In this document: in pieces, positions 8,844 through 62,900 of the stretch
How the letters are laid out: the number at the start of each line of letters is the position of its first letter
How positions within the stretch are numbered: the stretch's first letter is position 1
Assembly (NCBI GenBank): GCA_020629635.1
Contig: JAHDCX010000005.1
Location: 2,721-66,720, forward strand
Source of the DNA: Acidimicrobiales bacterium
GTDB lineage: Bacteria; Actinomycetota; Acidimicrobiia; Acidimicrobiales; SHLQ01
Direction of reading: 5' to 3'
Length of the DNA stretch: 64,000 nucleotides
Position numbers and translations under genes: made by a program
The notes under the pieces: generated by a model
What the model saw: only the letters and a program-made list of their open reading frames with translations
Told to the model about the DNA's origin: nothing
Databases searched by the model: none

Positions 8844-9650
8844 GTGACTGGACCCGAGACAGATGAGGGCCTCGTCGAGATGGCGGTCGAACTCGCCACC
8901 GGCGCCGGAGCTCTCACCCGAAAATGGTTCGATCGAGGAACGGTCGAGTTCGACACCAAGGCCGACGGATCACCCGTGACCGAAGCCGACAAGGCGGCCG
9001 AACGGTACCTCCGGGAGCAGATCGCGCTCGCCTTTCCGACCGATGGCATCGTCGGTGAAGAAGAAGACGATCGTGAAGGGACAAGCGGTCGGACGTGGAT
9101 CATCGATCCGATCGACGGAACCAAGTCCTTCATGAATGGTGTGCCTCTGTACGGCACCCTGCTCGCCGTCGTCGACGAGCACGGCCCGGCGGTCGGCGTG
9201 ATCGTGATGCCAGCGCTCGACGAGGTCGTCGCCGCCGGACGGGGGCTCGGTTGCACGTACAACGGTCGCGAAACCTCGGTCCGAGCCCCCGAGTCGCTCG
9301 AGGGCAGCTACGCGAACACCAGCGGCTTCGACTACTGGCCCGACAAGGACATGCGCCATCGGTTCCTCGAATCGGGGCTTGTGGTCCGAACGTGGGGCGA
9401 CGCCTACGGCTACGTGCTCCTGGCGACCGGTCGAAGCGACGCGATGGTGGACCCGCTCGTCAACCTCTGGGACGTCGCACCGATGCAAGTCATCATCCCC
9501 GAGGCAGGAGGCAGGATCACCGACGAGTTCGGCCAGCCCTGGGTCCCCAATCAGGAGCGATCGTTCGTTGCGACCGCCGGAACGATCCACGATGAGCTCG
9601 TGGCCGTGCTCTCAGACACGCCGATCGACGTTCCGGCCGACGACGACTGA
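8844..9650 (+). CDS. hisN: Histidinol-phosphatase, inositol monophosphatase family
   Basis: 268 residues. Mg2+-site motifs in order: GEEE (71-74), WIIDPIDGTKSF (85-96) and WDVAPMQVIIPEAGG (209-223). The WGDAYGYVLLATGRSDAMVDP stretch (185-205) is typical of actinobacterial HisN (histidinol phosphate to histidinol + phosphate, histidine synthesis) rather than general inositol phosphatase; an inositol-1-phosphatase role remains possible. GTG at 8844 is chosen over the ATG at 8835 because a TAGGAT -10 box covers that ATG. Ends 1 nt from the convergent DUF3105 gene. Confidence 0.9.
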   Translation: MTGPETDEGLVEMAVELATGAGALTRKWFDRGTVEFDTKADGSPVTEADKAAERYLREQIALAFPTDGIVGEEEDDREGTSGRTWIIDPIDGTKSFMNGVPLYGTLLAVVDEHGPAVGVIVMPALDEVVAAGRGLGCTYNGRETSVRAPESLEGSYANTSGFDYWPDKDMRHRFLESGLVVRTWGDAYGYVLLATGRSDAMVDPLVNLWDVAPMQVIIPEAGGRITDEFGQPWVPNQERSFVATAGTIHDELVAVLSDTPIDVPADDD

Positions 9651-34342: not shown

Positions 34343-37300
34343 CTATGGGACGGTCACGATGCGGGCCGGTGCGTAGTCGTATTTGCCGGTGGCGTCGTAC
34401 GACAAGACGTCGATGCGCCAACGGCCGGCGGGGACGTCGATCGTGCGAGACCAGTTGACGGTCGTGCCTGGGGTGATGTCGAGCTCGAGCCACTGACCGG
34501 CACCGATCGTGCCGTCAGCGCGCAGGCCCTCCGAACGGTTGTCCTCGTTCCGGATCAGCAATCGGACTCGGGTGACGCCCTGGTCGTCGACAGCGGTTCC
34601 GGTGATCGTGAACGGGCTTCCGACCGTCGCACCGTTGTCGGGCGAGACGGTTTCGGTTGTCGGGAATGCGTCACCGGGCGTCATCCAGAACCACGCATAC
34701 CGACTTGCCGTCTGACGCATGCCGTCGGTGTCGTAGGCGAACGAGCGCACCCAGTAGCGACCTTCGGCGGGCATCGTCATCTCGTACGTCCACGTCGTCG
34801 ACGTCGCCCCGACCTGGTCGACCGATGCGGACCGGTACGCAAGAGCCGACTCGCTCGTCAATGAGCCGTCGGGCATGACGAACCCGCGGCGATCGTTGTC
34901 CCAGATGAGCACTCGGACCTCGGCAACACCGGTGTCGTCGGTGGCGGTTCCGGCGAAGGACATCTGCAAACTCGTGGCATCCGCGCTGAGGTTGCGTGGC
35001 GTGGTGATCCGCGTGTCGGGCGCAGCATTTCCCTCGAAGCCAACGGTGAAGTTGATGCTGATCCGCTCGCCCCACAGGCCGCTGTCGTCCTGTGGCTGGA
35101 TGTACACGAACCACTGGCCGGGTTCGAGATCGGGTGTCGTGAACGCCCAGTTGGAGCGCGTCCCGCCGGGCTGGGTCACGAACGCATCGAACCAGTTCGC
35201 CGTCGTCACACCCGGATTGGGGTTTGGGCCCTCGTTCACGTGGGCGCGGCGGACGTAATAGCGGACACGCTGCACGCCACGATCGTCGAAGATCACGCCG
35301 TTGACCGCGAGCGGTCCGGGCGCGATCAGGTCGCCCTCGGTGAGCGACTGGATCTCGAGCGTCGGCGCCTCGTTGTTGGGCCGATAGGTGATGACGCTCT
35401 GCACGTAACTGCCGCTCGGCTGCCCGGCGTCGTCCCAGGCTCGGGCACGGACAAGCCACTGACCCTCGAACGGCAACGTCACGGTCGGATGACTCCAGTC
35501 GGTCGCCGCCGCTCCGGGCGAGGCCAGCGTCGCGTCGCGATACTGCGTGACGTTGGAGATCGTCGTGTTGTCCGCACGAAGCCATCCACGGGTCTGGTCT
35601 TCGTTCCCGTAGAAGTAGTAGCCGACCTCGACGCGAGCGACGCCACGATTGTCCGTGGCGCGGCCACGCGCGTTGACCGCCGGATCGGTGATCTCGCCGG
35701 CGACCGGTTCGCTGATCCCGATGACCGGAAGTTGCTCGCCTGCATCAGCGAGAACCGTGATGTTCTGCGCGATCGCCTTGGTTTGCGGGAAGTCGTCGAT
35801 CGCCCGGGCTTCGACGCGGTATCGGCCGGGCGGAAGGCCGGGTACGGCAATCTCGTAGGCAGTCGATGTCGCCCCGCGGTTGGCGAGGGTGGCGTCGACC
35901 TGCGCGGTCACCCCGTCCACTCCGGCGATCGTGCCGCCCAGCTGCAGTCCCTGACCGGTCGCGTAGTTGTAGATCCGAACGGTCACCCGATCGACGCCGA
36001 AGTCGTCCTCGGCGAGGCCCCGCATGACAAACCCCTGGTTGGCGGTCAGCGTGGAGTCCTTGGCCGGTTGGTCGATGGTGATCAACGTCGGTGGCTCGTC
36101 CACCCCGTCGTCGCCCACGCGCCGAGTGGCAGAGGACTTCGACGCATCCTTCTGGCCTGACGTGTCGACGGCGAACGCTTGCATCCGCCACGTTCCATCG
36201 ACGGGCACGGTGACCTCGATGCTCCAGTTCGTTCCGGTCTCGCCAGGGTTCGTGAGCGTCGGCGAGAAGGCGTACCAGTCGCCCAGTGAGCCGTCCTCTC
36301 GCAGATATTCGGTGCCCAACTGATCGCGGAGAATGAACACGAGTCGCACCCGGTCGACGCCGATGTCGTCGGTTGCCGTACCCGACACCGTGATGGTCCG
36401 AGCATCGTGATCGACGATCGCCGAGGTGATGAGGGTGTCGGGTGCTTCGTCCACGGCTCCGCCGACCGTGCGGATGCGGATCGACGGTTGCGCGGGGTCC
36501 TTGCCGCCGGCCCGGTCGAAGGCCTTCGCCTTGATCTCGTAGTCGCCGTCTCGAGGCAACACGATCGGCAGGCTCCAGGTGGAGCGGGTCTCACCAGGCG
36601 ATCCGAGCGACGCGACCGACGCGGACCAATCCGCCCCGAAGGACCCGTCGGACTGCAGCCATGTTCGGGTGCCGAGATCGAACACCGTCACCTGCACGCG
36701 GTCGACACCCTCGGGCGCCGTCGCCTCACCCTCGAGCTGAATTGTCGTGCCCGCTTGGAACTGCGCGCCGGTGATGGGTGACGTGATCGTGGTGTCGAGC
36801 GTGTCGACGTCGCCGCCGCCCCCGCCCTGATTGCCGTCACCGGGGTTGAGGCGGTCGAAGAACGCGGCGCGACCGACCGGCTTGTCGGCGACCGTGTCAC
36901 CGTCATGACCGAGCAGAAGCCCGCGATCGATGACCTGGAGCTCGTAGACGCCGTTGAAGCCGTTGGCGCCGGGGTTCCAGTTGAGGGAGTGACCCGTATC
37001 CGGGTCGAGTGCCGCAACCTGCTGGCGGGCAACGACCTCGTTGCCAAGAATCGACGCGTCCTGGTCGCCACCGAAGCCGTAGCTCTTCTCGGGGTCGCCC
37101 GGATAAGGATCGGTGGCGCCTGGCGCTTCGGTGTATTGGAAGTGACCACCGATGTAGACGACGTCGTCGTCGATCGCGGCCGAATAGGTCGAGTCGAAGT
37201 TGCGGGTGATCCAGACGGGCTGCACGTCGTCGGAGCCATCCGCGCGGACGTCGAATCGGACAGCCGTGTCGTTGGTCGGCGGACGATCGCCACCCGAGGT

Positions 37301-38191
37301 CGTGACGACGAAGTACTTCCCGTCGGGCGACAGGGCGAACCCACGGAACCAGAACTGACCACCGACTCGGTCGCGATTGTTCTCGTACAGGCGCGTCCGC
37401 CAGTTCTTCATGCGGGCGGTGTTGGCCGCGATGTCGATCTTGCCCAAGCCCCATCGTTCTTCGCCGCCGATGAAACGCGACGACGACATGACGATGAGCT
37501 GGCGGCCGTCCGGGGTCACTTCGAGCGCCTTGGCCGACATCGAGCCACCGACACCGATCGGACCGCTGAGGCCGAGGGTGAAACTTTCGGCAGGCGTACC
37601 GGTTGCGGCATCGACTTCGGCAAGTCCGGCACGGGCAATGCCGTTGATCATGGTGAAGGTGCCACCGACGAAGAGTCGGGTGCCGTCAGGGGAGATGGCG
37701 ACCGCCGTTGCCTTGGAGTCCGCATTGGCGCGAAATCCAGTGTCGAGCACTCCGTCGGCCGTGATCCGGGCGATCTTGCGTGCCTTCTCACCGTTGATGT
37801 TGTTGAACGCACCGACCAGGTAGACCGCGGACGCGTCGGGGGCGACGACGATCTGCTCCACCTCACGATCGATCTGCGGGAGGAAGTCTCGGTCGAGTTC
37901 GCCGGTGTCGATGTCGTAGGCGAACAGGTACTTCTGCGCAATCGGCGCTTCTCCTGCGGCCGGACGAACACTCGTGAACGATCCCGATACGAGGATTCGA
38001 TCACCCATCTGCTCGAGGTCGAAGACGGTGCCGTCCACGACGACCGGCACGTCGGTGCGGACACGATCGGGCACGAGACCGGTGCCGGCCGACGCGGGAT
38101 CCGCTTCACGGACCGCGAGCCCGACCAGGACCGCGAGGGCGGCGAGGATCAGACCGAAAGCGAGGAAGGTTCGACGATTGGGTACAGCCAT
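34343..38191 (-). CDS. Surface protein: beta-propeller plus seven Ig-like domains (left copy)
   Basis: 1,282 residues. An N-terminal helix (about 9-27) serves as signal or anchor. Residues about 40-430 form a delta-60/NHL-like beta-propeller (VSGSFTSV, VGAFNNING, AVAISPDGTRLFVGGTFTMING). A Gly-rich linker with GGGGGDVDT is followed by seven Ig-like units of about 100-130 residues, each opening like ITSP...G-A-DD-GVDRV-V and containing W-W spacing and PAGRYRV-ARA-D. Extracellular, probably binding the partner proteins of the same module. Collinear along its length with the 1,281-residue protein at 55454-59299. Last gene of the left module. Confidence 0.88.
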   Translation of the reverse strand: MAVPNRRTFLAFGLILAALAVLVGLAVREADPASAGTGLVPDRVRTDVPVVVDGTVFDLEQMGDRILVSGSFTSVRPAAGEAPIAQKYLFAYDIDTGELDRDFLPQIDREVEQIVVAPDASAVYLVGAFNNINGEKARKIARITADGVLDTGFRANADSKATAVAISPDGTRLFVGGTFTMINGIARAGLAEVDAATGTPAESFTLGLSGPIGVGGSMSAKALEVTPDGRQLIVMSSSRFIGGEERWGLGKIDIAANTARMKNWRTRLYENNRDRVGGQFWFRGFALSPDGKYFVVTTSGGDRPPTNDTAVRFDVRADGSDDVQPVWITRNFDSTYSAAIDDDVVYIGGHFQYTEAPGATDPYPGDPEKSYGFGGDQDASILGNEVVARQQVAALDPDTGHSLNWNPGANGFNGVYELQVIDRGLLLGHDGDTVADKPVGRAAFFDRLNPGDGNQGGGGGDVDTLDTTITSPITGAQFQAGTTIQLEGEATAPEGVDRVQVTVFDLGTRTWLQSDGSFGADWSASVASLGSPGETRSTWSLPIVLPRDGDYEIKAKAFDRAGGKDPAQPSIRIRTVGGAVDEAPDTLITSAIVDHDARTITVSGTATDDIGVDRVRLVFILRDQLGTEYLREDGSLGDWYAFSPTLTNPGETGTNWSIEVTVPVDGTWRMQAFAVDTSGQKDASKSSATRRVGDDGVDEPPTLITIDQPAKDSTLTANQGFVMRGLAEDDFGVDRVTVRIYNYATGQGLQLGGTIAGVDGVTAQVDATLANRGATSTAYEIAVPGLPPGRYRVEARAIDDFPQTKAIAQNITVLADAGEQLPVIGISEPVAGEITDPAVNARGRATDNRGVARVEVGYYFYGNEDQTRGWLRADNTTISNVTQYRDATLASPGAAATDWSHPTVTLPFEGQWLVRARAWDDAGQPSGSYVQSVITYRPNNEAPTLEIQSLTEGDLIAPGPLAVNGVIFDDRGVQRVRYYVRRAHVNEGPNPNPGVTTANWFDAFVTQPGGTRSNWAFTTPDLEPGQWFVYIQPQDDSGLWGERISINFTVGFEGNAAPDTRITTPRNLSADATSLQMSFAGTATDDTGVAEVRVLIWDNDRRGFVMPDGSLTSESALAYRSASVDQVGATSTTWTYEMTMPAEGRYWVRSFAYDTDGMRQTASRYAWFWMTPGDAFPTTETVSPDNGATVGSPFTITGTAVDDQGVTRVRLLIRNEDNRSEGLRADGTIGAGQWLELDITPGTTVNWSRTIDVPAGRWRIDVLSYDATGKYDYAPARIVTVP

Positions 38192-38323: not shown

Positions 38324-38671
38324 CTATGGCGTGAGGCACTCGTTGAGCGCAGCCTGATCCTCGGGGTCGATGTCGGCGAGCTGACGGAGATCATCGATCT
38401 CGCCGAGACCGGATTCGCCAAGGATCTCCGCGTAGCAGGCCGCCAGTTCGTCCTCGACACCCACCGACTCGAAGACCTCTTCGACCGGCAGGCTTGCGTC
38501 GTCGACCGTGTCGGTGGCCGGGGTGGGAGCAACCGTTGACGGTGAATCGGTCGGCTCCTCGAGCGTGCGGTCGTCGAACGGGAGCTCGTCCGGCGTGTCA
38601 TCGGCGGTGCAACCCAGTGCAAGCGCCCCGAGAACAACGAAGATGCTGATGGTTTGGCGGATGGTCAGCAT
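38324..38671 (-). CDS. Two-cysteine small lipoprotein (left copy, second)
   Basis: 115 residues. Lipobox LALGC (Cys21), a Pro/Thr/Asp/Glu linker starting ELPFDDRTLEEP, and a C-terminal helical pair with ACYAEIL ... NEC, the two cysteines 33 residues apart. The linker start and the cysteine pair match the lipoprotein at 59512-59901. Its ATG overlaps the end of the upstream lipoprotein gene by 7 bp (38665-38671). Probably exported, lipid-anchored, with one disulfide. No known family. Confidence 0.78.
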   Translation of the reverse strand: MLTIRQTISIFVVLGALALGCTADDTPDELPFDDRTLEEPTDSPSTVAPTPATDTVDDASLPVEEVFESVGVEDELAACYAEILGESGLGEIDDLRQLADIDPEDQAALNECLTP

Positions 38672-39102
38672 TGGGCGAACTCCTCGCTTTGCGCATCGGT
38701 GAACGCTGCCTGGCGTTCGGCCAACTCAGATTCGGTTCTGGCATCGAGCCCGTGGCGTTCGAACATCGCCGAGTAGCAGGACGCGAGCTCCATCTCGACG
38801 CCAAGGCTGATCCAGAGCTCCTCCAGCTCGGACAGCGGCGCATCCACTTCGATTGCGTCGGCATGGCCCCCGATGTCGGCGACCTGCCCGACCTCAATCA
38901 CCATCTCTCCCGTCTCTGGGTCGATGCTGATGGCATCTTCGGGAAGGTCGTCGATGCCACCGATCGCGACGGTGGTCGGTGTGGTCGCAGCGACCACCGT
39001 CGAGGAATCGACGTCGGCGAGTGCACCGGGCTCATCGCCCTCTCCGTCGCCGCAGCCAACAATGACCAGTGCGAACACTGCCACAAGCCGTCGGATCTTC
39101 AT
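38665..39102 (-). CDS. Two-cysteine small lipoprotein (left copy, first)
   Basis: 145 residues. MKIRRLVAVFALVIVGCGDG gives lipobox IVGC (Cys17). An acidic Thr-rich linker is followed by ISIDPETGEMVIEVGQVADIGG and a C-terminal helical pair SCYSAMF ... FAQC with the cysteines 36 residues apart and the second one the last residue. It is a divergent relative of the two other small lipoproteins. The frame reaches 39132; the chosen ATG begins the signal peptide. Confidence 0.76.
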   Translation of the reverse strand: MKIRRLVAVFALVIVGCGDGEGDEPGALADVDSSTVVAATTPTTVAIGGIDDLPEDAISIDPETGEMVIEVGQVADIGGHADAIEVDAPLSELEELWISLGVEMELASCYSAMFERHGLDARTESELAERQAAFTDAQSEEFAQC

Positions 39103-39162
39103 GGTGTCCCTGTCGGACGTCATGACCCACACATGAGTCGTTCGGCCCAGATCGCTGACCTC

Positions 39163-39210: not shown

Positions 39211-42200
39211 TCAGGCTGCGAGTTCGTCCTCTCGCCGCGCTCGGCGTGAGGCGAACACGAGCAGGAAGCCGACCGTGAGCAGCACTGCGGCGAGGGAGCC
39301 GAGGTCGAGCGCTTCCCGACCGGTGAAGGCCAGCGGACCGGATGGCCCGTTCGCCGCCAGATCGCCGTCGGTGTAGGCACCCCAGTCGATGTCGTCGCGG
39401 TCTTCTCCCGATGTGAGATTGATCGAGCTCGTCCACCCGTCGGCGCCACCGTCGCTGTCGGTGCCCGGGCATCCACAGTCCGAAGGCGTCGTCGTCGGGG
39501 TGTACCCCGGCGGCAGCGTCGACGGATCGAAGCGCACCCGGTATTCGCCTGGCGGCAGGTCGTCGAACAGGTAGTTGCCATCGGCGTCCGTGCTCGTGGA
39601 TGAGACGAGAACGTCGTCGTCGCCGCCGAACTCACCGTCGGGTCCCGGGCTCCACAGTTCGACGGTGACGTCCGGGATCCCGGGCTCGCCGTCGTCCTGC
39701 TGTCCGTCGGTGTCACTGTCGCGCCACACGGTGTCACCGATCGATGCGGAGCTGGTGAAGCCCGCTTCGACCGACAGATCCTCCACCGCCGTGTCGATGA
39801 CCCCGTTCGGGTCGAGCGAGATGATTCCGGTCATGCCCGTGAACGGGTCGGCGTCGGAGTCGTCCTCATCGTCCGCCCCCTCATTCGCCGGCGTCGGCGC
39901 CAAGGGTGCGTGTGTCGGATTGTCCGGATCCAGCGTGAATCGCACGATGTACTCGCCATCGGGCAGGTTGCTGAACTCGTAGAACCCGTCGACATCGCTG
40001 ACCGTTGTGGCGATGACCTGACCGGTCACTGGGTCGATGAGCTCGATGAGCACACCGGCCAATGGCAGCTCGCCGGGGTCCTGGACCCCGTCGCCGTCCG
40101 AGTCGATCCACGTCGTGTCACCGATGCGGTTGATCGCCGATGGGTCGTCGATGTAGCCAGCGTCGACGGTCGAATCGACGATCGGGTCGGCGCTCGTGCC
40201 CGCCGAGTCGAGATCGATCACGTGCGTGCGGCCGTTCTGGCGGTTGGCGTCGGAGTCGGTCTCGTCGGTGGTCGTGTTCTCCCAGGTCGGGATCAGCGTG
40301 GCGTGTGCCGGGTTGGTCGGCTCGAGGTTGAACTCGACTTGGTACTCGCCGTCGGGAAGATCGGCGAACTCGTACCAACCGGTGGCGTCCGTGCTGACAA
40401 CCTGCAGGACAATGTCGTCGCCGTTGCCGAAGACCCCGTCGGGACCTGCGCCAATCAGCGAGACCAGCACGCCTTCGACCGGTACCTCTCCCGGATCCTG
40501 AGCACCGTCGCGATCGGCGTCGATCCAGGTGTAGTCGCCGATCGAGTTGATCCCGATTGGCTCGACGAACCCGGCGTCGATCGTCGGATCGACAATCGGG
40601 TCAGTGCTCGTTCCGTCCGAGTCGAGGTCGATCACGTGCGTCAGGCCAGTCACCCGATCAGCATCGGAGTCGATCGAATCGTCGGTTCCCTGGTCGGCCC
40701 ACGTGAACCCGAGATCGTCGTGATCAGGGTTGGTCGGGTCGAGCTCGAAGCCGACGACGTACTCACCGTCGGGCAGGTTCGTGAACTCGTAGAAGCCGGA
40801 AGCGTCTGTCGTCGTGGTGGCGAGCGCAACGTCATCACCGTTGCCAGCGATGCCATCCGGGCCAGGACCGTACAAGGTGACGATCACGCCTTCGAGCGGT
40901 GGTTCACCCACGTCGGGGATACCGTCGCGGTCGGTGTCGAGCCACGTGTAGTTGCCGATCTCGTTGACCGCATCGGCATCGTCGAGCCATCCTGCGTCGA
41001 TCGTCGGATCGTTCACCGGGTCATTGTCGACACCAGCCGAGTCCAGGTCCACCGTGTGACTGCGACCCGTCTGACGGTTCGCATCGGAGTCGGCGGCGTC
41101 ATCGCCACCCTGATGCTCCCACGTCGGCACAAGATCATCGTGAGCCGGGTTCGCTGGGTCGAGGCTGAACGCAACCTGATACTCACCGTCCGGAAGATCG
41201 ACGAACTCATAGGAGCCCGAGGCATCGGTGGTCGTCGTGTCGAGCACGGCATCGTCAGCCGTTCCGAACACGCCATCGGGGCCGGCACTCATCAATTCGA
41301 CGATGACACCCGCAAGCGGTGTGTCACCAGCGTCCTGGACGCCGTCCTGGTTGACGTCGATGAAGGTGCTGTCCCCGAGGCTGTTCTGTGCCTCGACGAA
41401 TCCGGCATCGATCGTCGCATCGACGATCGGGTCGGCGCTGGCGCCCGCCGAATCGAGGTCGATCACCGCGGTCAGGCCTGTGGTGCGATCGGCATCGGAG
41501 TCGGCGGCGTCGTCGCCACCCTGGTTGTCGAACGTGAAGTCCAGACCGTCATGGGCCGGGTTGGTCGGGTCGAGCTCGAAACCGACCACATATTCACCGT
41601 CGGGCAGGTTCGTGAACTCGTAGAACCCGGTCGCGTCCGTCGTCGTGGTCGCAAGGACCACATCGTCAGCTCCACCGAACACACCGTCGGGACCGGGTCC
41701 GTACAGCGACACGATGACACCCTCGAGCGGAGCTTCACCCGGATCCTGCACACCGTCGTTGTCGGCGTCCAGCCACGTGAAGTCACCAATCTCGTTCACC
41801 GCATCGGCATCGTCGAACCATCCCGCGTCGATCGTCGGATCGTTCACCGGGTCGTCGTCGACACCAGCCGAGTCCAGGTCCACCGTGTGGCTGCGACCCG
41901 ATTGACGGTTCGCATCGGAGTCGGCGGCGTCATCGCCACCCTGATGCTCCCACGTCGGCACAAGATCATCGTGAGCCGGGTTGGCCGGATCGAGACTGAA
42001 CTCGACCTGATACTCACCGTCCGGAAGATCCGTGAACTCGTAGAAGCCCGCAGCGTCGGTCGTCGTCGACTGGAGGAAGACATCGTCGGCGGTGCCGAAG
42101 ACGCCGTCCGCACCTGCGCCGTAGAGGTCCACGATGACCCCCTCGAGCGGCGTATCGCCGCCGTCTTGGACACCGTCCTGGTTGACGTCGATGAAGGCGT

Positions 42201-45200
42201 AGTCGCCGAGGCTGTTGTCGCCCGTCAGGATGTAGCCAGCGTCGATGGTCAGATCGATGACTGGATCGTCGTCGGTTCCGTCCGAATCGAGATCGATGAG
42301 ATCGGTCAAGCCGGTCAGTCGATCGGCGTCGGAGTCTGCGGCGTCATCGCCTCCCTGATTCTCGAACGTCAGGTCCAGGCCGTTGTGGGCCGGATTGGCT
42401 GGATCCGTTTCGAAGCCGACGACGTATTCGCCATCGGGCAGGTTGGTGAACTCGTAGGCACCATCGGCGTCAGTGGTCGTCGTGGCAATCGCGACGTCGT
42501 CACCGCCGCCGGGCACACCATCGGGACCCGGGTCGTACAAGGTGACGATGACTCCGGACAGACCGGACTCGCCAGCGTCCTGGACACCGTCGCCGTCGGC
42601 GTCGATCCAGACGTGGTCGCCGATCGCATTGACTGCATCAGCGCCGTCGAAGAAGCCTGCATCGATCGTCGGATCGATCACGGGGTCGTCATCTGCACCG
42701 GCCGAGTCGAGATCCACCGTATGGCTGCGACCCGATTGACGGTTCGCATCAGAGTCAGCAGCATCGTCGCCACCCTGGTGCTCCCACGTCGGCACGAGAT
42801 CATCGTGGTCCGGGTTGGTCGAATCGAGGTTGAACTCGACCTGATATTCACCATCGGGCAGATCCGTGAACTCGTAGAAGCCGCTTGAATCGGTCGTGGT
42901 CGAGTCGAGGACGACATCGTCGGCGGTCCCGAAGACACCGTCCGGGCCGGCGCCGATCAGATCGACGAGGGCACCCTCGACCGGATCCTCGAGCGCGTCC
43001 TGCACACCATCTTGATCTGCATCGATCCAGACGAAGTCACCGAGCTCGTTGGCGTCGGAGTCGACGAATCCGGCGTCGATCGTCGCATCGACAACCGGAT
43101 CATCGTCAGCACCAGCCGAATCGAGATCGATCACCTGCGACAGACCCGTCGTGCGATCCGCATCAGAATCGGCGGCGTCGTCGCCACCCTGGTTGTCGAA
43201 CGTGAAGTCCAGACCGTCATGGTCCGGGTTGGTCGGGTCGAGCTCGAAACCGACCACGTATTCACCGTCGGGCAGGTTCGTGAACTCGTAGGCCCCGGTG
43301 GCATCGGTCGTCGTGGTGGCGATCACGATGTCATCGCCGTTGCCGGCGATCCCGTCGGGACCAGGCCCATAGAGCGTCACGATGACACCCTCGAGCGGGG
43401 CTTCACCCGGATCCTGCACACCGTCGTTGTCGGCGTCGAGCCACGTGAAGTCGCCAATCTCGTTGACTGCATCCGCGTCTTCGAAGAAGCCCGCATCGAC
43501 CGTCGGATCGACGACGGGATCGTCGTCGACACCAGCCGAATCAAGATCCACCGTATGACTGCGACCTGTCTGACGGTTCGCATCCGAATCGGCTGCGTCA
43601 TCGCCACCCTGGTGCTCCCAGGTCGCCACGAGGTCGTCGTGGGCCGGGTTGGCCGGATCGAGACTGAACTCGACCTGGTACTCACCGTCGGGAAGATCAG
43701 CGAATTCGTACCAGCCGGTCGCATCGGTTGTTGTCGAGGCGAGCACGATGTCATCGGCGGTGCCGAAGACGCCGTCGGGGCCAGCGCCGATCAGGTCGAC
43801 GAGCACGCCAGGCAACTCGTCTTCACCAACATCTTGGACACCGTCCATGTCTGCGTCGAGCCACGTGTAGTCACCCACGATGTTGACCGCGTTGGGGATG
43901 TAGCCGGCGTCGATCGTCGGGTCGACCACGGGGTCGTCGTCGACTCCGGCCGAGTCGAGATCGACGACCGGACTGAGCCCGGTCGCACGGTCGGCGTCGG
44001 AGTCGGCCGCATCGTCGCCACCCTGGTTCGGCCAGGTCGGGCCGAGGTCGTCGTGGGCGGGGTTCGTCGGATCGAGTTCGAAGCCAACCACGTATTCGCC
44101 GTCGGGTAGTTCGGTGAACTCGTAGTAACCGGATGCGTCTGTCGTCGTCGTTTGCAACGCAACATCGTCGGCACCGCCGAACACGCCGTCGGGTCCGGGA
44201 CCGTAGAGCGTCACAATGACGCCCGGAAGGACGGGCTCACCGACATCTTGAACGCCATCTGCGTCGAGGTCGATCCACGTGTGGTCGCCGAGTTCGTTGA
44301 CGCCGCCGGGGAAATAGCCCGCGTCGATTGTCGGATCGACCACGGGGTCATCATTGACCCCGGCCGAGTCGAGATCGATCGTGTGCGATCGACCGGTGAC
44401 ACGGTCGGCGTCGGAGTCGGCCGCGTCGTCGGCGCCCTGATCAGCAAACGTCGGTGCGAGACCATCGTGTGCCGGGTTGGTGGCGTCGAGACTGAACTCG
44501 ACCTGGTATTCGCCGTCAGGAAGGTTCGTGAATTCGTAGAACCCGCTTGCGTCGGTGGCGGTCGACTGGAGCACGACGTCGTCGGCGGTGCCGAAGATGC
44601 CGTCGGGACCAGCGCCGATCAGGTCGACGAGCACGCCAGGCAACTCGTCTTCGTCGGCATCCTGGACACCGTCCATGTCGGCGTCGATCCACGTGTAGTC
44701 ACCCAAGCTGTTGTCGCCGCCCTGGAAGAAGCCAGCGTCGATGGTCGGGTCGACCACGGGGTCATCGTCGACTCCAGCCGAGTCGAGATCGATGACGCCG
44801 CTCTGGCCGGTCAGGCGATCAGCGTCGGAGTCGGCGGCATCGTCGCCACCTTGATCGGCGAAGGTGAAGTCGTAGCCGTCGTGATCGGGGTTGGTCGGGT
44901 CGAGACGGAACTCGACGACGTACTCACCGTCGGGCAGGCCGGTGAACTCGTACCAGCCTTCTTCGACGGCGGGCGTCGATGGGTCGTCGCCGGTCGTCGT
45001 TGTGGCGAGCACCACGTCGTCGGCGGTGCCGAAGATGCCGTCGGGGCCGGGGCCGATGAGGTCGACGATCACGCCGTCGATACCATCTTCGCCTGCGTCC
45101 TGGACGCCGTCACGGTCGGTGTCGATCCACGTGTAGTCGCCGATCTCGTTGACGGCGCCAGGGATGAAGCCGGCGTCGATCGTCGGGTCGTGCTCGCCCG

Positions 45201-48200
45201 GATCGAGCGAGACGACGTGAGATTGCCCGGTCGCACGGTCGGCGTCGGAGTCCTCCGCATCGTCGCCACCGAGATCGTTGAACGTCAGGACGTAGCCCGG
45301 GGGCTCGACGAATTCGACCATGTAGTCGCCTGCGGGCAGGTCGCCGAACTCATACCAACCTTCTTCGACCGTGCCCGTCGTCGACGGATCGTCGCCGGTG
45401 GTGGTGGTCATGGCCGGGTAGCCGAGTGCCGGATTGGTGGTGATCGCACCACTCGCCGGATCTCGGTAGAGCTGGTTGCCGCTGCCGTCCAACAAGTTGA
45501 CGGTGACGCCGTCGATGGCATCCTCACCGGGGTCCTGCACACCATCTGCGTCGGCGTCGATCCACGTGTAGTCGCCCAGCGACGCTGCTTCGTACCAACG
45601 GCCCTTGGCCTGGTTGACGACGAGGTCGGTGACCTCGTCGGACACGACCTGGACGTCGTTGACGTACCACTGCATCTCGACGAAGGTTGCCGGAACGTCG
45701 GCGATCAGCTCGATCGTGATCGTCTCGTTCGGTCCGAGACTCGAGATGTTCCAGACGATCTCCTGCGTTCCACCCGGTCCTGCGCCGACGGCGCCGGCCG
45801 TGTCGAGCGTGACTCGGCCATCGGTCGAGTTCCACGTGTCGTAGGTGAGCGGCGCGGGGAGGAAGTCGGTCACGACGAGGTTGTTGTTCGTCGTGTCAGA
45901 CGACGGGTTGGTGATGACCAGATCCCACGTCGCCTTCTCGCCCGCTTCCCAGCCGCCCTGCTGCTCATCAGGAACCTTGGCGATCTCGAGTCCATGCCCG
46001 CCGGTTGCGGCGCGGGCGATGTCGGAGTCTCGTGCACCGTCGAGCGACGCCGGTAGCGTTCCGCCACCGGCCGTGAACGTCTCGACCGCGGCGCGGTTCG
46101 TCACGTTCAGCGGCGCAGCGGGGTCGGCCTGAGCGGTGAACTGGATCTCTTTGGTCTCGCCGGCAGCAACATCGCCGATCGTCCACTCGAGTGTCTGGAC
46201 GTCCGTTGCCAGCGTGCCGACCGTCGGCTCTACTGCGGTCCAGCCATCGGCCGCCGTCGAGCCGGCGTCGTACTCCCACCGGAACGGCAAGGTGTCGCGC
46301 ACCACGGCACCGTAGGCGGGGGCTTCGCCGTCATTGATCACCTGGATGCACCAGGTCACCGGAGTGTCCGGATCGACGAACTGGAACTCGTCCGCGCAGC
46401 CACCGACGAACTTCTCGAGTCGAATGCGAGGACCAACGAGGGGGTCGGTCGTGGTGGCGACGAGAATCGGTTCGTAGATGCGATCGCCGGGCTCGGGCTC
46501 GACCCCAGGACGGGCACGGAACTCGGTGATTGCTGCTTCGTTCTCTGCGTCGCCGTAGCCAGAGATCAGGAAGTCGTCGGCCACCTCAGCGGTGTAGGTG
46601 AAGGTGGCCGTCTCACCCGGCGCGATCGCCGGAATGAACCAGCCGACCGTCGGGTCGATCGAGGTCCAGCCACGGGTGACGACCGAACCGGGGAAGGTCG
46701 TCGGGTCCATCACGATGTTCTCGAGCGCCCCGTTGGGGGTGTCGGAGACCTGGACCCCGTAGGCGTTCATGACCCCAGTGTTGGTCACCTCGACCGTGTA
46801 CGCGATCGTCGATGAGCCATCGACAGGCGTCGACGACGGCGTCGCCGTCTTGGCGATTGCCAACTCCGGCTCACGAATGTCGACGGTCTCGCTGCCCGGA
46901 TCGGACGGCGGATATGTCGTCCACGTCGACGGCGGCGGGATCATGGCCGGCTCGTCGAGGAGATCTTCCTCGTTCGAGTAGCCAACGACCGTGTTGGTCA
47001 CGGAGTCGCCGTCTTCGATCGTCTCGACCGCCGGAACGACGAACTCGTCATTGACGCGAACGCGATACGACATCGACCAGGTGTGCGACGCACCCGAGCC
47101 GGGCATGTCACCGAACCACCACATCAAGGTGGTCGTGCCGTCGCCGTTCGGGACCGGGGTGTAGGTCACGACATCGGCCGGGTCGTAGCCGGAGGGGCAC
47201 GAACCATCGCACGTGATGTCGGTGTACTCAATGAAGGTGAGACCGTCGGGCAGTGTGTCGATGTAGGCCAGGTCGGCGAAGATCTGCGTCGCATTCGCCG
47301 TCCACGACACGGTGTACTCGACGACGTCGTTGATCGTGGCCGGGTTGGGCGTCGAGCCCTTGCTCGGTGTCGGCGGTTCCGATGGGTTGATCACCGTGAT
47401 GCGACCGGCATCGGTCAGCTCGGTGTCGAAGTACTCCTTGACCGTCGTGGTCACCGTGTTGTCGTAGCGCGTGTTGTTGTTCTCGTCCGCAGGTACCTGG
47501 ATCGGCATGGTGATCACGACACTCTCACCCGGAGCGATCGAGCTGAAGAACCAGTCGACCGATGAGGTCGTCGGCGTCTGATCACAGCGCGTCTCGGCGA
47601 AGCCAGTGCCGTCAGGCGTGGATGCCGTACCGCACGTGTAGCCCGTGCCGAGCGGTACCCCACCGGTGATGGTCAGGTTGTCGGTGAGCGTGATGTCGGT
47701 CACCGGCACGTCGAGGTCGTTCGTGAACGTGATGGTGAACTCGGTCAACGTGTCATCGGTGACGTAGTCGTCGTCCGGCGTCTTGGAAAGCGCAACCGGC
47801 GTGGGCACCGGGACGATCGCGTTGTACGGCTGGGTCAGGACGACAGCGTCGTAATCGCGCACGGCCTCGAGGGTGACATTGTTCTCCATGAACCACTTGT
47901 CCGTGGAGGTGTCGTCGGGGTCGCAGGCCAGGATCGACGGGTCGGGCGTGGCTTCGTAGTGGATGCGAATCCAGTTGTACTTGTCGAACTCCCCCTGGTC
48001 GTAGCTCCGTTCGGGCGTGCTGTGCTCGTAGTCCCACGTGCGGGCGTCGACGTATCGGTACTCCCACGGTTGGTCGTTGCCCGGAACGTCACGTTGGAAG
48101 GTCCACGTCATCGTCGGACCATCTTCGTGGTAGTGCTCGGCGTGGCAGTCCCCTTGCGTCGAACCGTCGATGACTGGGTCCGGTAGAGGAACAGCGCCGT

Positions 48201-51200
48201 AGTTCGTCTCGAAGTTGTCGATCTCGGAGTCGAAGGTGCCCGGGCCGTCGTGGGACAAGAACCAGTTGCCGTCGAGAATCTCGGCCGAACCGGTCACGTA
48301 CGTCCAGCCGTATGGCAGCTGATCCGTGATCGACATGCTTTCGAGCCGTGAGAGTTCATCTGCACGAATGTCGAGTGACCAACGATAGGGCTGACCCGGA
48401 ACGACATCGAAGATCTCCGCCCAGTTCTCCTGCTGCGCAAGAGACGGAGTTCCGTACGAGCTGTCAGACCACCAACCCTGATTGTCGGTCGTCGTGTCGA
48501 ATGGATCCCAACACTGGTTGTTGTCGTTCCATCCGCCACAGTTGCCGTTGCCGCGTACGCCGAGCTGACGTGCGCGGACCTCGATGGGATGAACAAATCG
48601 AGTCAGCCGGCGTTCGACGGGGTCCAGAACGTCGGTGGCATCGTCACCTTCCGTCCAGTAGTCGCCGCCGTAAACGTCCCAGGCGTTCAGCGGGTCCTGG
48701 AAGTTCGCATCGAACGAGGTCCGATCCTCACGACATCCTGGACCGTGCCGGTACGGCCATGTCGTCTGGAGGTAACACTCGGCAGGGTCGTTGTATTGAA
48801 TGAATGGGCTGGCATCCGCCTCGATCGAGGCGACGTCGCGACCCACAGGGAACGGGAACTTGTTGATGTCGAGGTACGGCTCCTTGAAGTTGACCTGCTC
48901 CCAGGCGGTCACCTCTGCACCGATCGTCTCGCCGCCCGGCGTGTCGGACCACGGGGCCAAGCGAGCGTCGTTGCGCCACGCACCCCGGGTCTCCCAGTCG
49001 CCACTGTCACGCCAGTGGTTGGATCCGGCGTAGTTGGACCAACCGTCGATGCGCAGGGCGTAGGAGAGCTCGACGACCTGGTTGGGTTCGAGCTCGAGCA
49101 CCCATTGTGCTGGGAGGCTGTTGACCGGGGTCGACAGGTTTGGATGGTTGAGCGAGATCGACGAGATGTCGCAGTCGTAGTGGGCGATGTCGGGATCCTC
49201 GAAATCGGTTCCGGCATGCCCACCGCCCGTCGCAGCGGTACGCCAGTACGTCGTGCCGTTGAGATGGCGCAACGCATAGACGCAGTCGGTCATGGGTGTG
49301 TCGTCGACAATCACGTCGTAGGCATCGACCGGTGACTCGTTGGTCACCGTGATCGTGCACTCCACGTTCGGCGTGCCAATCGCCGTGACGATTGGCTGAG
49401 CGTCGAGCTCCGAACCCGGAGCTCCACACTGCTTGTCCATCGTGACAACCGGGTAGGAGATGATGGCCTCCTGCTCGTCGGCAGCGGCATGAATACCTGT
49501 GACCTGGTTCCACCAGTCGGTGTTCGTCGAACCATCGTTGGTGTCCCACCAGGTGTTGTCGCCCGTATATCCACCATCGAGGATGGCCAGATTGGGGCGA
49601 TGCATCTCGGCCAGGCGAAGCAGCCAGGTCGGATCTTCGTCGAAGAGCGGGTCGGTCGCACCACCGGGGAACGTGGTTGGGCGGCGATCGGCAACGATCT
49701 CTCGGAACTCGTCGAGCGTCGGCATCTGCACGGCGTAGGTCAGCTGCAGCACACGATCCTGGCCCTCCGGGTCAGGATCGATGTCGCCCAGGTACCAACC
49801 GATGGCGTTGTTGTCATCATCGTTGTACGCCGAGACCGGTCCGTCCGCAGGGTCGCCGTACTCGACGAGCGGCAAGGGGGCGAGGCCGACTGGCGTGATC
49901 GTGTCGGCTGCGGTGGTGCAGCCCACGATGCACGTCTCACTCACGTAGGTGAGGAACTCGACCGGCGGGAGATCGTTGTTCTTGTCGAGGCCGCCGTTGG
50001 GCAGCATCGTTGCGTTGTCGTAGGTGTACTCCGCCTGGGACCAACCGGAGCGACGGTTGATCCAGTCTCGGATGACGACGTCCTTCGAGGAGAAGCCGGC
50101 CGGGATGGTGACTTCGACCGTGTAGGCAAACGTGCTGCCGAACGCATCGACCGGGTGGTCGACGCGCTTCTCGAGCGTCGGCGTGTCTGCCGACATCGAG
50201 TACAGGTCACCGGCGTCGCCGCGAAGACCGTCGTCGGAGTGCCACTCGAAGTTGTTGGTCAAGAAATCGTTCGGGAACGGCGGAACGTCGGCGTACCTGA
50301 CCGGGATCTTCAGGTACCAGTTTCCGGACGGGATCGGGGGCACGTTGTCCCAGATGATCTCGGTCTCGCCGTCAGGAAGGACCGTTGCGGAGACGAAGTA
50401 GTCCTCCAGCTCGGCACCGGCTGGCCACGTCGGCGGCGCGTCGACGATGGTCGCGACGGCATAGTCGGGGTCGGCCGGGTCGAGCAGACCTCGATACTCC
50501 AGACCGTGCGGGAGGAGATCGACGAAGCGGTTGTTCACCACATCGTGATCGTCCAGATAGAAGTTCTCGAGGCGAATCGTGAACTCATCGATCTCGCCGG
50601 GCCGACCAGCGACGTTGTCCTCGGCGTCGGGAGTCTTGTGGACCCGGTTGTCGCCGGGGTTCGGGCAACCTTGCGTATCGGTCTCGAGGTATTCGTAGGG
50701 TTCTCCCGAGTTCTGGCCGCGCTCGGTCGCACCGGAGCCATCGAGGAAGCTGAGCTGACCGTCGATACGGAACGGACCGGTGTCGTTCATCACGGTCTCG
50801 ATCTCGATGTAGTACTCGACACCGGTGCTGTAGTTCGCGTTCGGGATGTATGCGACATCGGGGATCGAGCCGCGGTTCCACGTGAGGGTCTGGGTGCCGT
50901 CGCCGTTGTCGACGATCACGTCGGGGTCGGGGAACGCAACCATCGCGTCGTGGTCCGGATCGTTGGTGAGCGGACCACGGCCGGTCGCCGCGTAGCCGAC
51001 GATGTCGAAGTCCGGCAGCGTCACGATCAGCTCCGGCGAGTAGCCGACCGCATGGTCGAGACGACCATCGCCATCGAGATCAAGCGTCGGTGAGGGCTCC
51101 AAGCGGATGTCGGAGTCGTAGTCCGTGCCACCGATGATGTCGCCGTTCGAAACACGGACGCTCCACAGAGCCGTTCCACCGATCGGTTCGAGCCACATCT

Positions 51201-54200
51201 CGTTGGCGCAGGCGACTTCGACCTCAGGGACCGGCGTGAATACGAATGTGCGCACGACGGCGTTTCCGGTCGAATACACGGTGTCACCCGTGTGATCCGG
51301 GCCAGCGACCTCGTAGTACTCGGTCGCCTGTACCTCGTTGCGGATCACGTCTGGCGCGTTGTTCAGGGCCGAGATCGGCGACAGCATGTCGGGTGACACG
51401 AGTGGCGTCGCCTGATACTCGATGACGATCTGGCCACCGACACCGGGACCGGTGAAGCCGTCGGGGTCGCCGGCGAGCGGGCCAGCGAACTCACACTGGA
51501 GTTCCTGCGGTGTCCCGACGATGGCGCATGCGACGCCCGCGGGTGACACGAGCACGCTGGTCTCGTCGATGTCCATCCGGTTGACGCCGAGATCGACGGC
51601 GAGGTCGTCGATGAGGTCGATGTCGAAAGCAGGACCCGAGCCGACGTTGGTGATCGTGATGCGGTAGTCGATGACCTCACCGGCCTCGACTTCGAACACG
51701 GGATTTCCGTCGGAGTCGAAGCCCTGCTTCTCGATGTCGAGTCGTGGTGTGACGATGTCGACCGACGCTCGGTCCTTCGGGAACGCACGGTCGAACTCGG
51801 TGCCAGAGTCGGGGATCGATGCGGGCAGACCCGGGAAGACGTCACCTGAGGCACCGACGCCTGCGTCGACGTCGCGGTTGAAGAACGGCCGGACCGAGTT
51901 GATCATCGGTTCGCCGATGCCATCGATCACCTCGACGCCAGTCGAATAGGTCGTGTCGACGGTGGCCGGGAAGGTGACCCGGTAGGTGGAATCGGCAGCG
52001 TCGGCGTAGTCACCGAACCACCAGTGCAGGACGGTGCGTCCTTGCACGTTGAGCGAGGTGCCGAGGTAGGCGCCGGTGAACTCGGCCGAGCACGGACCCG
52101 CAACACAGCTCACGGTCCATCCGGCGGGAAGTGAGCCAGAGGTGCCTTCTTCGCCATAGGTCGGCTCGGCACCGAGCACGAGCCCATCGGGCAACGTGTC
52201 GACGAGCAGGACATCGTGGCTGGTGAGCGGATCTGCCGGGTTGGCGGGATCGCCATCGATCGTCAGATCAATCGTGAATGTCACGACACCGCCTGGCGCC
52301 GATTCGGCGATTTCGGCGCCGGGGCTGCTGCCGTCGTTGGACACGGTCTTGTCCACCGACGGACCCGGCTCGATCGGGACGAGTGTGTACTCACCGTCGG
52401 CCTGGTGGGAGTCTGCATCGAAGTCGATGCCCGGGTTGGTCACCGTCACCGTGTTCAGGCGCGTGAACTGTCCGTCCGACGGGGTCTCACCGTTGTGGGC
52501 GAACGGCACCGTGATTCGGGCCTGTGCACCCGGTTCGAGCTGGCCGAGCGTCAGGCTGACGTTCGGGGTGTGACCGGCGAGGATCGCGCCAGGGTCGGCG
52601 ACCGAGTTGTCGACCATCGTGGATGGCGACTGGCCAACCCACACGATCGTTGCGTCGCCAGGGAAGTACTCGAACGGGTCGGGCATGGGGTCGTTGACGA
52701 CCAGTCCGCCGATCGGGACGTCGCCGCGGTTGACCACGGTGATCGTCCATGCGCCCTCCGACGGATTGGCGGTGTCGGTCGTCCAGTTGAGGGTGGCGCC
52801 GTCGTCGACGAAGGGCGCCTTGATGACTTCGAACACCGGTGGGATCAGGTCGACGTCGGCCGGGTCTTCGTCGTAGTACGCGTCACCATCCGCGTCGAGG
52901 TTGTCGGCGGTGTCCTCCCAGCGGAGTTCGGCGACGTTCTCGTAGTTGCCCGGATCGACCGGGTCGCAGATCTCGATGACCGCGTCGAAGGAGAACTCGT
53001 CACCGCCGGCAAGCGGCGAATCGAGCTGCCAGACGCCCGCAGCCGTCTCGGTGACGCCGGTCGCGCCAGCGTCGAGTCCGCCGTCGACGTTGCAGAATCC
53101 GGTGGGAGGCACGTCGGTGACGACGATGTTGTAGGCGGTGGCGGTGCCGACGTTGCGGACACGGAAACGGAACGGCACCTGGGTACCGACCGAGTTGGCG
53201 TAGTCGAGCGTGTCGGTCCGCAACTTGTCGATGCGCAAGACCGGGTCGGGCAGCTCGTACTCGACCGTGTCGGCGGGCTGCTCGGTGTAGGTGCTGCCCA
53301 GATCGTCGCTGTAGGCCGGGATGCTGAAGGTGTTGCTCACGACACCGGTGGCGGTGGCGGTCGCCTGGTAGGTGACGTCGAACGAATCACCTTGCGCGAC
53401 GGGGCCGGCGTAGGTGAACGAGAGCACACCGTCGCCGTCGATGGCACAGTCGCCGCACGGGCCGCCGTCGATCAGGACGGTCGCGACGTCGATACCGACG
53501 CCAACGACGACGTCGGTGATCGACAGATTCTGGGCCGGACGGGAGCCGGTGTTGGTGACCGTCGTCGTGTAATCGACGGTGTCGCCGGGCTGGAAGTCCC
53601 AGTCGGTGACTTCGGTGTCGGAGAAGTCGCCATCGGAGGTGAGGCCACGCTTGTCGACGGTCAGGATCGGACGGTCGAAGATCACCGTGTCCGTTGCGTC
53701 AACCGAACCGTCATAGGGAGGAAGCGAGGCCGTCGACGGCTCAATGTCGCCGAGGCGGTCAACCGTGTTCCAGTTGACGGACACGTCGTTGGCGAAGCTG
53801 TCGAGGAACTCGACCGGATCACCCGAGCCGTAGGTCGGATCGATTTGCACCGAGTAGACGAACGTCATCTGGCGGGGGGCAAGGTCGGCGTCGATGGTGT
53901 TGGGGTACCAGCCGATGCCGGCGCCACCACCCGGGAAGGCGGTCGGCGTGAGGGTCGCGATCGGGTCCGGACACGTCGGACCAGCTGGGGTGCAGGTCGC
54001 CGAGTCGTACGAGACGAAGCTCATGCCATCTGGCAGCGTGTCGACGATCGTGAAGTTCTCGAAGGACGCGCCGGCCGGAATGTCGACGACGACGGTGAAG
54101 GGGATCGGCAGGCCAGTGCCGTAGCGATCGACCCCCGACGTCTTCGAGACGCTGGGAGCCGGCGAGCCGACCGTCACGAGGGCGTCGTCGTTGTCGGCGT

Positions 54201-59981: not shown

Positions 59982-62900
59982 TCAGTCGACGACGACCGCC
60001 GCTTCGTCCTCACGACGGGTCCACAGCACCATCGCCCAACCCACGGTGATCAGCGCAACCGCGAAGGCAGCGAGCTGATCGGCGTCGATTCCCGTGAGTG
60101 CGAGCGTCGCCGGCACGGCCGCAGCGGATTGGTTGACCAGCGTTTCCTGGCCACCGTTGACCGTCGCCACGACGGGCTCGTATCCGCTCGGGAGCGTGAC
60201 GCCGGACGGCGGGGTGACCGTCACGGTGTAGTCGCCGGGCGGCAGACCGTCGAAGGTGTAGCTGCCGTCGGCAGCCGTCGTCGTGGTACCGACGACGTTG
60301 CCGTCAGCGTCCGTGATCGTGACCGTTGCTCCACCGATCGCCGTTTCGCCAGAATCGACGATTCCGTCGCCGTCAGCGTCGTTGAAGACAGTGCCCACGA
60401 TCGATCCCGGGTTGTAGGTCGCGGTGGCGTCGTCCGTGTCGGACACGCTGGGGCAGTCACCGAGCGCCAACGAGTTCGGTGCGTCCGCCGTCGGGTAGAA
60501 CAGGTCACAGTCCGGGTGCGCCTCCACCGTGCCCTCGAGCAACAGGTCTCCGGTGCTCTCCGAGATCGTCGTCGAACACTCGTAGCTCACTGCGCCGCCG
60601 ACCTCGAGGGATGAGACGACGTCTGCGCACTCGGCGAGCAGCGGGTTCGTGATCGTGACATCGAAGAGGTCGACATCGCCCGTGTTCGTGATCGTCACCC
60701 GGAACTCGACGTCTTGGCCGTCGGCGAAGCTCACCGACTCGTCGACCCACGTCTCGCTGACCGGATCCCAGACCTCGACGAGGATGTCGATCGACGGACC
60801 GGCAACGGTCACGCCAGCCGGGTCGTCGTCCGACACTGGGTTGCCGTTCGGATCCTGACCAACGACCGAAGCGTCTCCCGTGATCGGACCGCCCTCGTGA
60901 ATCGTGGGGCACTCGTAGGAGAACGTCTCGTCGGGGGCCAACGTCGGAACCGTGACGCCGGCTTCGTCGGAGCCACACTCCGGCACATCGAGGTCGGTGA
61001 CATCGATCGAGCTGAGATCCACGTCGCCGATGTTCGTGACCGTGTAGCGGTAGATGACGTTGCCACCGTCGACGACCGTGGCCGCGTCCACCCACTGGCC
61101 GGTCTCGGTGTCCCAGACCTCCTTGACCAGCTCGATGCCTCGCGCCTCGACAGCGCTCGTGTCATCAGCCGTAGGTTCGTTGCCCTCGGGCGTCGAGCCA
61201 GAGACCGTCGCCGTGTTCGTCCCGGTGTCCGTGATCACGACGTCGCAGGTGATCTCGACCGACTCACCCGCGGCGAGCTCACCGATGGTGACATCACAGT
61301 CTGGATACAGATCGTTGACGAGTTCGACGTCGGTCAGATCGGTCGAACCGTCATTGGTGATCGTGAACGTGAACGTGGCGGTCTCGCCGACCTCGAACTG
61401 GCCGAGTTCGGCCTCCATGCCGGTGATCGGGTCGAACACGGTGTTGGTGATCGACACGCCATAGCTTTCGACCGCGGCCGTGTCGGCGGCACTTGGGTTG
61501 TTCCCGTCCGGGGTCAGACCATCCGCGCTCGCCGTGTTCGTGCCGCCGTCGGTGATCACCACGTCACACGTGAGGGTCGTGGAGTCGTTCGCCTCCAGCA
61601 CCCCGATGGATACCGAGCACTCGGGGTACAGATCGTCGGCGAGTTCGACGTTGGTGAGGTCGACGGAGCCGTTGTTCGACACCACGAACTCGAAGGTGGC
61701 GGTCTCTCCGACCGCGATCTCGGCGAGCTCGACCTGGCTTCCCGAAACCGGATCGAGGACGGTCTTGGCGATGTCGATCGCATAGACCTCGACGGCCGAC
61801 GTGTCCGATGCCGTCGGATTGTTGCCGTCCGGCGTGTCGCCGTCGACGCTTCCGGTGTTGGTGCCTGCCGAGTTGATCGTGACATCGCAGGTGATCTCCA
61901 CGGACTCGCCAGCGGCGAGATCGCCGATGGTCGTGTCGCAGTCGGGGTAGAGATCGTTGACGAACTCGACTCCGGTCAGATCGGTCGAACCGTCGTTCGT
62001 GATCGTGAAGGTGAACGTCGCCTCATCACCCGGCTCGAACTCGGCCAGTTCGACCTCGCCTTCGGTCAGGGGGTCGTAGACCGTGTTCGTGATCGACAGG
62101 CCGTACGTTTCGACGTTTGCTGTGTCGCTGATGCTCGGGGTGGCACCCGTCGCCGTCGTCGCCGACACGGTCGCCGTGTTGGTGAGGCCGTCGGTGACAT
62201 TGGCGACGGTGCACGTGTAGGTGACCGATCCGCCCGGAGCCAAGGGGGTCGAGGCGGTGATCCCGAGCTCCGCAGACGTGCGATCACACGCCGGATAGCT
62301 CGGGTCGGCGACGGCGGCGTCGGTCACGGGGTCCGAGCCGGTGTTCCGAACGATGATCTGGAATGTCACATCGCTCCCGATCGCATACTCCGCGTCGTCG
62401 ACGTAGCTGCTGCTGTCCGGGTCGGCGACGGTTTTGATGATCGCCACGCCGGAGATCGCCACGGCTGCGGTGTCGGAGTCGCTGACATCGTCACGGCCGT
62501 CGGCAGGCGTGCCGGTCGCCGATGCGGTGTTCGGGTTGAGCGAGTTGGTCGCCGTCCCGGAGCACTCGTACGTGACCGACGCGCTCGGTGCCAGATCGCC
62601 GATCGTTGCGTTGTCGCACGCAGCGAAGTTCGGATCCGAGACGGTGACGTCCTCGAGGGCGACCTCGCCGGTGTTCGTGACGACGATCTGGAAGTTGACC
62701 GTTGTCGCTGACCCGATCGTGATCGACTCGACGAACGTGTCGGGATTGTCGGGGTCCTCGACCTTCTTCTCGATCGTGATCTCGGCCGTGGGCAGGTAGT
62801 AGCCGAAGTCGACGCTCAGGTTGGTGTCGGTGTCGACTGCACCGGAGACGTCCTTGGAGAGGACGTCCTCACTGCTCGGCTCGGTGCCAACCCCGAGCGT

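Follow-up and report, generated by a model that had tools for sequence, protein, structure and literature searches.

In the window (the whole 64,000-nucleotide stretch of DNA analysed here), one open reading frame of 5370 codons has as its C-terminal third an array of SdrD-B units in which two domain types, A and B, alternate. This alternation is real, old and common to a second species. Very probably, an ancestral B-A pair multiplied early, later exchange ran between units of the same type in whole pairs, and the type-specific residues have been kept by purifying selection in the stalk of an anchored protein.

The predicted giant surface protein (39211-55323, minus strand, 5370 aa, GTG start at 55323) has a signal-peptide-like N terminus and a head that is rich in DUF11 and also includes DUF7507; Pfam matches to DUF11, DUF7507 and SdrD_B were found. 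Its C terminus carries LAFTG, a hydrophobic helix and then RRARREDELAA, which is the class E substrate pattern of LAxTG, hydrophobic helix and basic tail. The genome holds one Pfam sortase, encoded elsewhere, which appears class-E-like from its sequence: the nearest NCBIfam family is class_E, at 156.7 bits and below the cut-off of 160. A previous paper deals with sortases of class E and the signal that they recognize for sorting (PMC5148588). Judging from this architecture, the array would be a stalk that holds the DUF11-rich head off the cell wall in a sortase-anchored protein, and the head may be adhesive; fibrillar adhesins provide the comparison for such a head on a wall-anchored stalk (PMC8286594).

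Upstream of the giant gene there is a second large frame with SdrD-B domains (open frame of 2239 aa, about 60191-63251, minus strand), which makes the region a cluster of large surface proteins. Adjoining the giant gene, a 1282-aa protein (34343-38191, minus strand) has a beta-propeller-like N-terminal part and several Ig-like tandem repeats with a DDxGVxRV motif. Two small adjoining lipoprotein-like genes (38324-38671 and 38665-39132, minus strand) resemble diverged duplicates and have the common motif DELAACY/MELASCY.

Fifteen SdrD-B units run from 45591 down to 39367 on the minus strand. Against Pfam SdrD_B (PF17210) the array scores 1177 bits over 16 stretches, the curated cut-off being 29.7, which places it in the family. 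The units (u1 to u15) and the anchor are listed below; q1 to q13 are the units of the second species' array, L034, and G016 is a genome with an orthologous head.

45157-45591, minus strand: u1, divergent leader unit, with a counterpart in L034 and G016; 73% identical to q1
44719-45156, minus strand: u2, B type, carrying an insert of 8 aa; joins the B clade in the joint tree
44305-44718, minus strand: u3, A type, subtype A1, like q3 and q7 of L034
43891-44304, minus strand: u4, B type
43471-43890, minus strand: u5, A type
43057-43470, minus strand: u6, B type; shares with u10 a tract of 120 bp at 98.3% identity
42637-43056, minus strand: u7, A type
42223-42636, minus strand: u8, B type
41803-42222, minus strand: u9, A type; shares the tract at 41827-41982 with u11
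41392-41802, minus strand: u10, B type
40972-41391, minus strand: u11, A type; shares the tract at 40996-41151 with u9, at an offset of 831 bp
40555-40971, minus strand: u12, B type
40138-40554, minus strand: u13, A type, divergent; the alternating block ends here
39754-40137, minus strand: u14, divergent, without clear type
39367-39753, minus strand: u15, divergent, membrane-proximal; 58% identical to q13
39211-39366, minus strand: LAFTG sorting signal and transmembrane tail, from the sequence

The identity between units 3-13 rises and falls with their distance. Mean protein identities at lags 1-6 are 64.1, 75.6, 63.4, 74.3, 63.2 and 73.3%, and the DNA follows the same pattern, with 67.5, 74.8, 67.3 and 74.0% at lags 1-4. 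All 462 partitions of these units into six and five were scored by within-minus-between identity, and the odd/even split was the best one for both protein and DNA; it was also the best for units 2-13 (924 splits) and for units 1-14 (3432, complements counted). Permutation of the unit order gave p = 0.002, the lowest value that this test can return. In the maximum-likelihood tree a single branch with support of 93/96 divides odd from even units, and it recurs in 100% of 200 bootstrap trees. Mean identity is 72-76% within types and 64% between them, most unit pairs falling at 60-78%, and only u6/u10 (89%) and u9/u11 (85%) exceed 80%. The two alternating types proposed in an earlier note, which had staked the proposal on a phylogeny separating odd from even units, are thus borne out by the lag-2 excess, the split and the tree branch alike. 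Its landmark spacing of 831 and 834 bp was recovered as 831, 834 and 834 bp. Two details needed adjustment: the block that it gave as units 3-13 extends over 2-13, u2 grouping with the even (B) units, and the pair length of 277-278 residues was measured as 276, 278, 278, 277 and 279 aa.

The second species is represented by L034, a contig of Acidimicrobiales MAG-119 (genome G040), whose array is 81% identical to that of the window and stands under the same head (65% identity in the part adjoining the stalk, 50-52% in the first 2500 residues from the N terminus). L034 has 13 units, with alternation over q2-q9. The joint tree of the two arrays separates every A unit from every B unit, u2 included among the latter, with support of 100/99, and a tree in which the window units were forced into one clade was rejected (AU p = 0.003). 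As the A/B split is common to both species and a window-only clade is rejected, the types predate the species split. Consistently, units of the same type are 74-76% identical across the species, more than A and B units are inside the window array (64%). Six of seven type-diagnostic residues are alike in both species (36 A/P, 65 D/N, 72 Q/V, 74 E/G, 110 R/L and 113 T/V), and the parity columns of the two arrays agree (rho 0.47).

One-to-one positional orthology of all units between the two arrays was considered and rejected, the middle units being impossible to pair: unit-to-unit orthology is clear only for u1/q1 and u15/q13 and weak for u13/q9 (89/79). Within the A type, subtype A1 (u3 at 44305-44718; q3 and q7, at 9167-9580 and 10847-11260 of L034) stands apart from the other A units with support of 98/97, and its position in the tree may point to a third level of order.

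The types have also outlasted most of the synonymous resemblance between units. Synonymous identity was measured at codons where two units share a residue, with the three tract pairs described below left out; freely redrawn codons would give about 50%, the value expected at saturation. It is 55.0% within types and 54.1% between them. The trace of the duplications at the DNA level is nearly gone, equally within and between types, whereas in amino-acid sequence the two types can still be told apart. Since the synonymous sites are near saturation to the same degree on both sides, the types are old and have been kept at the protein level.

Only three tracts in the alternating block of the window stand above the codon-redraw null: u9/u11 (156 bp, 96.8%), u6/u10 (120 bp, 98.3%) and u3/u5 (69 bp, 97.1%). 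The first of them substantiates the nearly identical stretches of over 100 bp noticed earlier near 41,020 and 41,850, which are 40996-41151 and 41827-41982. Their core is exact over 80 bp, and no exact repeat in the window array is longer. A 45-bp match of u1 and u4 was marginal against the null and failed in a repeat run. These tracts are probably local events of homologous exchange. L034 is more strongly homogenised, with six tracts of 87-255 bp that are 98.6-100% identical, and it also has a 380-bp exact repeat that spans a unit border. These stronger tracts, together with the three of the window, speak for recent homogenisation of the whole array by unequal exchange, by which the earlier note had explained the pattern. 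That cause is improbable, for the nearly equal synonymous identities outside the tract pairs contradict it over most of the array, and the types are older than the separation from the second species; it holds only for the three short tracts.

The pair as the real unit of duplication and exchange, another proposal of the earlier note, fared better. All nine significant tracts in the two species lie at lag 2 or 4 (three of three in the window, six of six in L034), and the alternating blocks differ by two pairs. The even-lag bias follows partly from the mere existence of the types, as the tracts are few and units of one type resemble each other more in any case. The difference of two pairs (12 units in the window, eight in L034) comes from two arrays only, and a collapsed assembly of L034, a MAG with 380-bp exact repeats, may have distorted it; repeats of that length can collapse in a short-read MAG, which leaves the unit count of L034 uncertain. 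The window count is safer because its longest exact repeat is only 80 bp.

The same consideration bears on whether the alternation itself could be an artefact of assembly. The window comes from a draft genome of 37 contigs, but such short exact repeats, within-type identities of mostly 72-89%, a frame that stays open throughout and the recurrence of the pattern in an independent genome make this extremely unlikely.

The units resemble known SdrD-B domains in their fold. The best PDB match is 10ps (SdrD A2-A3-B1-B2), with 1e-17 by sequence and 8.6e-16 by Foldseek. An AlphaFold model of four domains has a pLDDT of 60, which is moderate confidence, and a low whole-chain TM; together these matches support a predicted SdrD-B fold for the array units, as in SdrD B1/B2. 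Every unit has an acidic loop of the DxDxDGxxDxxE type, and the array may form a rigid calcium-bound stalk.

The joints between the domains might provide a structural reason for the alternation: A and B may together make a rigid module of two domains, joined A-to-B in a specific way, and the geometry of the stalk may be what keeps the pairs. At the end of the later A units the A-to-B linker is longer and conserved (FFEDAD|AVNEIG, for example), and the B-to-A linkers are variable. The diagnostic columns 30, 34, 36 and 72, 74, 76 occupy alternate positions of predicted strands and would therefore lie on one face of the sheet. Against such a module, independent period-2 arrays have no common parity columns (Spearman near 0), which disposes of a structural rule at fixed columns as a general rule. 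The four-domain model was also considered for the joints, but its pTM of 0.30 makes them unreadable. We regard the module as a doubtful alternative to pair multiplication with same-type exchange.

To see how general period two is, we put some 65 SdrD-B arrays of many phyla through the lag test and scanned those of at least six units for exchange tracts. Period two is present at p<0.05 in about one sixth of the arrays, about three being expected. Judging from the lags of the tracts, exchange runs at a period of two units in the window, L034, L085 and L028, at one in L039 and L026, at three in L041, L054 and L076, at five in L055 (Thiotrichales) and at six in L096 (Saprospiraceae). A general SdrD-B property of period two is thereby rejected; it is one outcome of multi-domain duplication and no rule of the SdrD-B domain. 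L026 (G000:C33:34000-46000) belongs to the window's own genome and duplicates mainly single units, with tracts at lag 1, so that no cell-wide factor imposes pairs.

Orthologous heads stand on other stalks in related genomes. Heads about 46-55% identical occur in G016, G392, G089 and G332, the last two being cut by contig ends. The stalk of G016 (L025, G016:C4:129000-147500) has one SdrD-B unit followed by eleven DUF7507/DUF11 units, and that of G392 (L116, G392:C18:109000-125000) has seven DUF7507/DUF11 units, with SdrD-B not seen in the stalk. Compared with the window, these two represent a natural swap of the stalk under the same giant head, which is 48-55% identical in them. In G016, units v2-v9 alternate (60, 69 and 58% at lags 1, 2 and 3), the odd/even split is the best of 35 distinct splits, and the joint tree has a branch of the even units with support of 96/94; when all eleven units are taken, the odd/even split ranks only 15 of 462, and the v2-v9 core was picked after viewing the sequence. 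In G392, alternation is hinted at only in x1-x4. Under this head the SdrD-B stalk and a stalk of unrelated domains have thus been exchanged for one another, and period two arose in the latter as well, in a small sample with one strong case. That the unrelated SdrD-B stalks (window and L034) and the DUF7507/DUF11 stalk of G016 both have period two under orthologous heads, with the type residues of the window kept past synonymous saturation, could mean that alternation is a selected design rule of the very long stalks of this lineage, which we consider unlikely.

A related explanation is that selection holds the alternation because identical neighbors misfold or swap domains, like copies being tolerated only one step apart. 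Adjoining repeats have been hypothesized to diverge in order to escape misfolding (PMC4660218, PMC8201768), and neighbors in the window are 64% identical, next-but-one units 76%, and the unrelated DUF7507/DUF11 stalk of the orthologous protein alternates over 8 units (60% versus 69%). But 64% exceeds the usual level of below 50% for neighbors in large multidomain proteins (PMC8201768), many SdrD-B arrays have a lag-1 identity equal to that at lag 2, some exchange at lag 1 (L026 among them), and Björklund et al. hold the size of the duplication to be the main cause of such patterns (PMC1553488). Selection against like neighbors therefore seems an improbable cause.

In the history that we favor, early multiplication of a pair with later same-type exchange, two diverged ancestral SdrD-B domains in the order B-A would have multiplied as a pair before the window and L034 species separated. 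Later crossing-over or gene conversion would mostly have paired a B unit with another B and an A unit with another A, since a unit finds its best match in its own type, and copy number would consequently shift by whole pairs, making the alternation self-sustaining. Purifying selection would retain the type-specific residues. The types may be selected for the sake of a specific A-B joint, to keep like units from being neighbors, or only because two old lineages each maintain their fold.

Among known systems, the B repeats of Staphylococcus aureus SdrD (PDB 10ps, 4jdz, 8vdk) are alike in being tandem Pfam SdrD_B domains, C-terminal to a head and with a sortase-type anchor. The window array differs from them in its 15 units, its A/B alternation, LAFTG in place of LPxTG and a head not recognized as a staphylococcal A region; in a scan of the C-terminal 1003 aa, the whole-protein family MSCRAMM SdrD (NF012181) gave 315 bits against a cut-off of 2500, only the repeats being matched. 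Periscope proteins (Whelan et al. 2021, PMC8201768) share the surface head, the stalk of tandem domains, the wall anchor and a repeat number that differs between relatives. The periscope screen used near-identical tandem repeats of at least 80% identity, a level that the window array as a whole does not reach, and the length variation of the window stalk is seen between species only.

The closest precedent concerns the mode of growth. Domain repeats usually expand by several domains at once, most often two (Björklund, Ekman & Elofsson 2006, PMC1553488), and the two-domain expansions of that study have the same lag-2 peak in the vector of identity by distance as the window array. Growth of repeat proteins by two domains is thus well known, and the window array is a good example of it. 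The families of that study are mostly eukaryotic, whereas the present case is an SdrD-B stalk of a bacterium whose two types recur in a second species. It is a clean case, since both species allow one to measure how large the duplication unit is, how old the types are and at which lags the tracts lie. One head on different stalks also makes a natural set for asking whether the neighbors in long stalks must differ.
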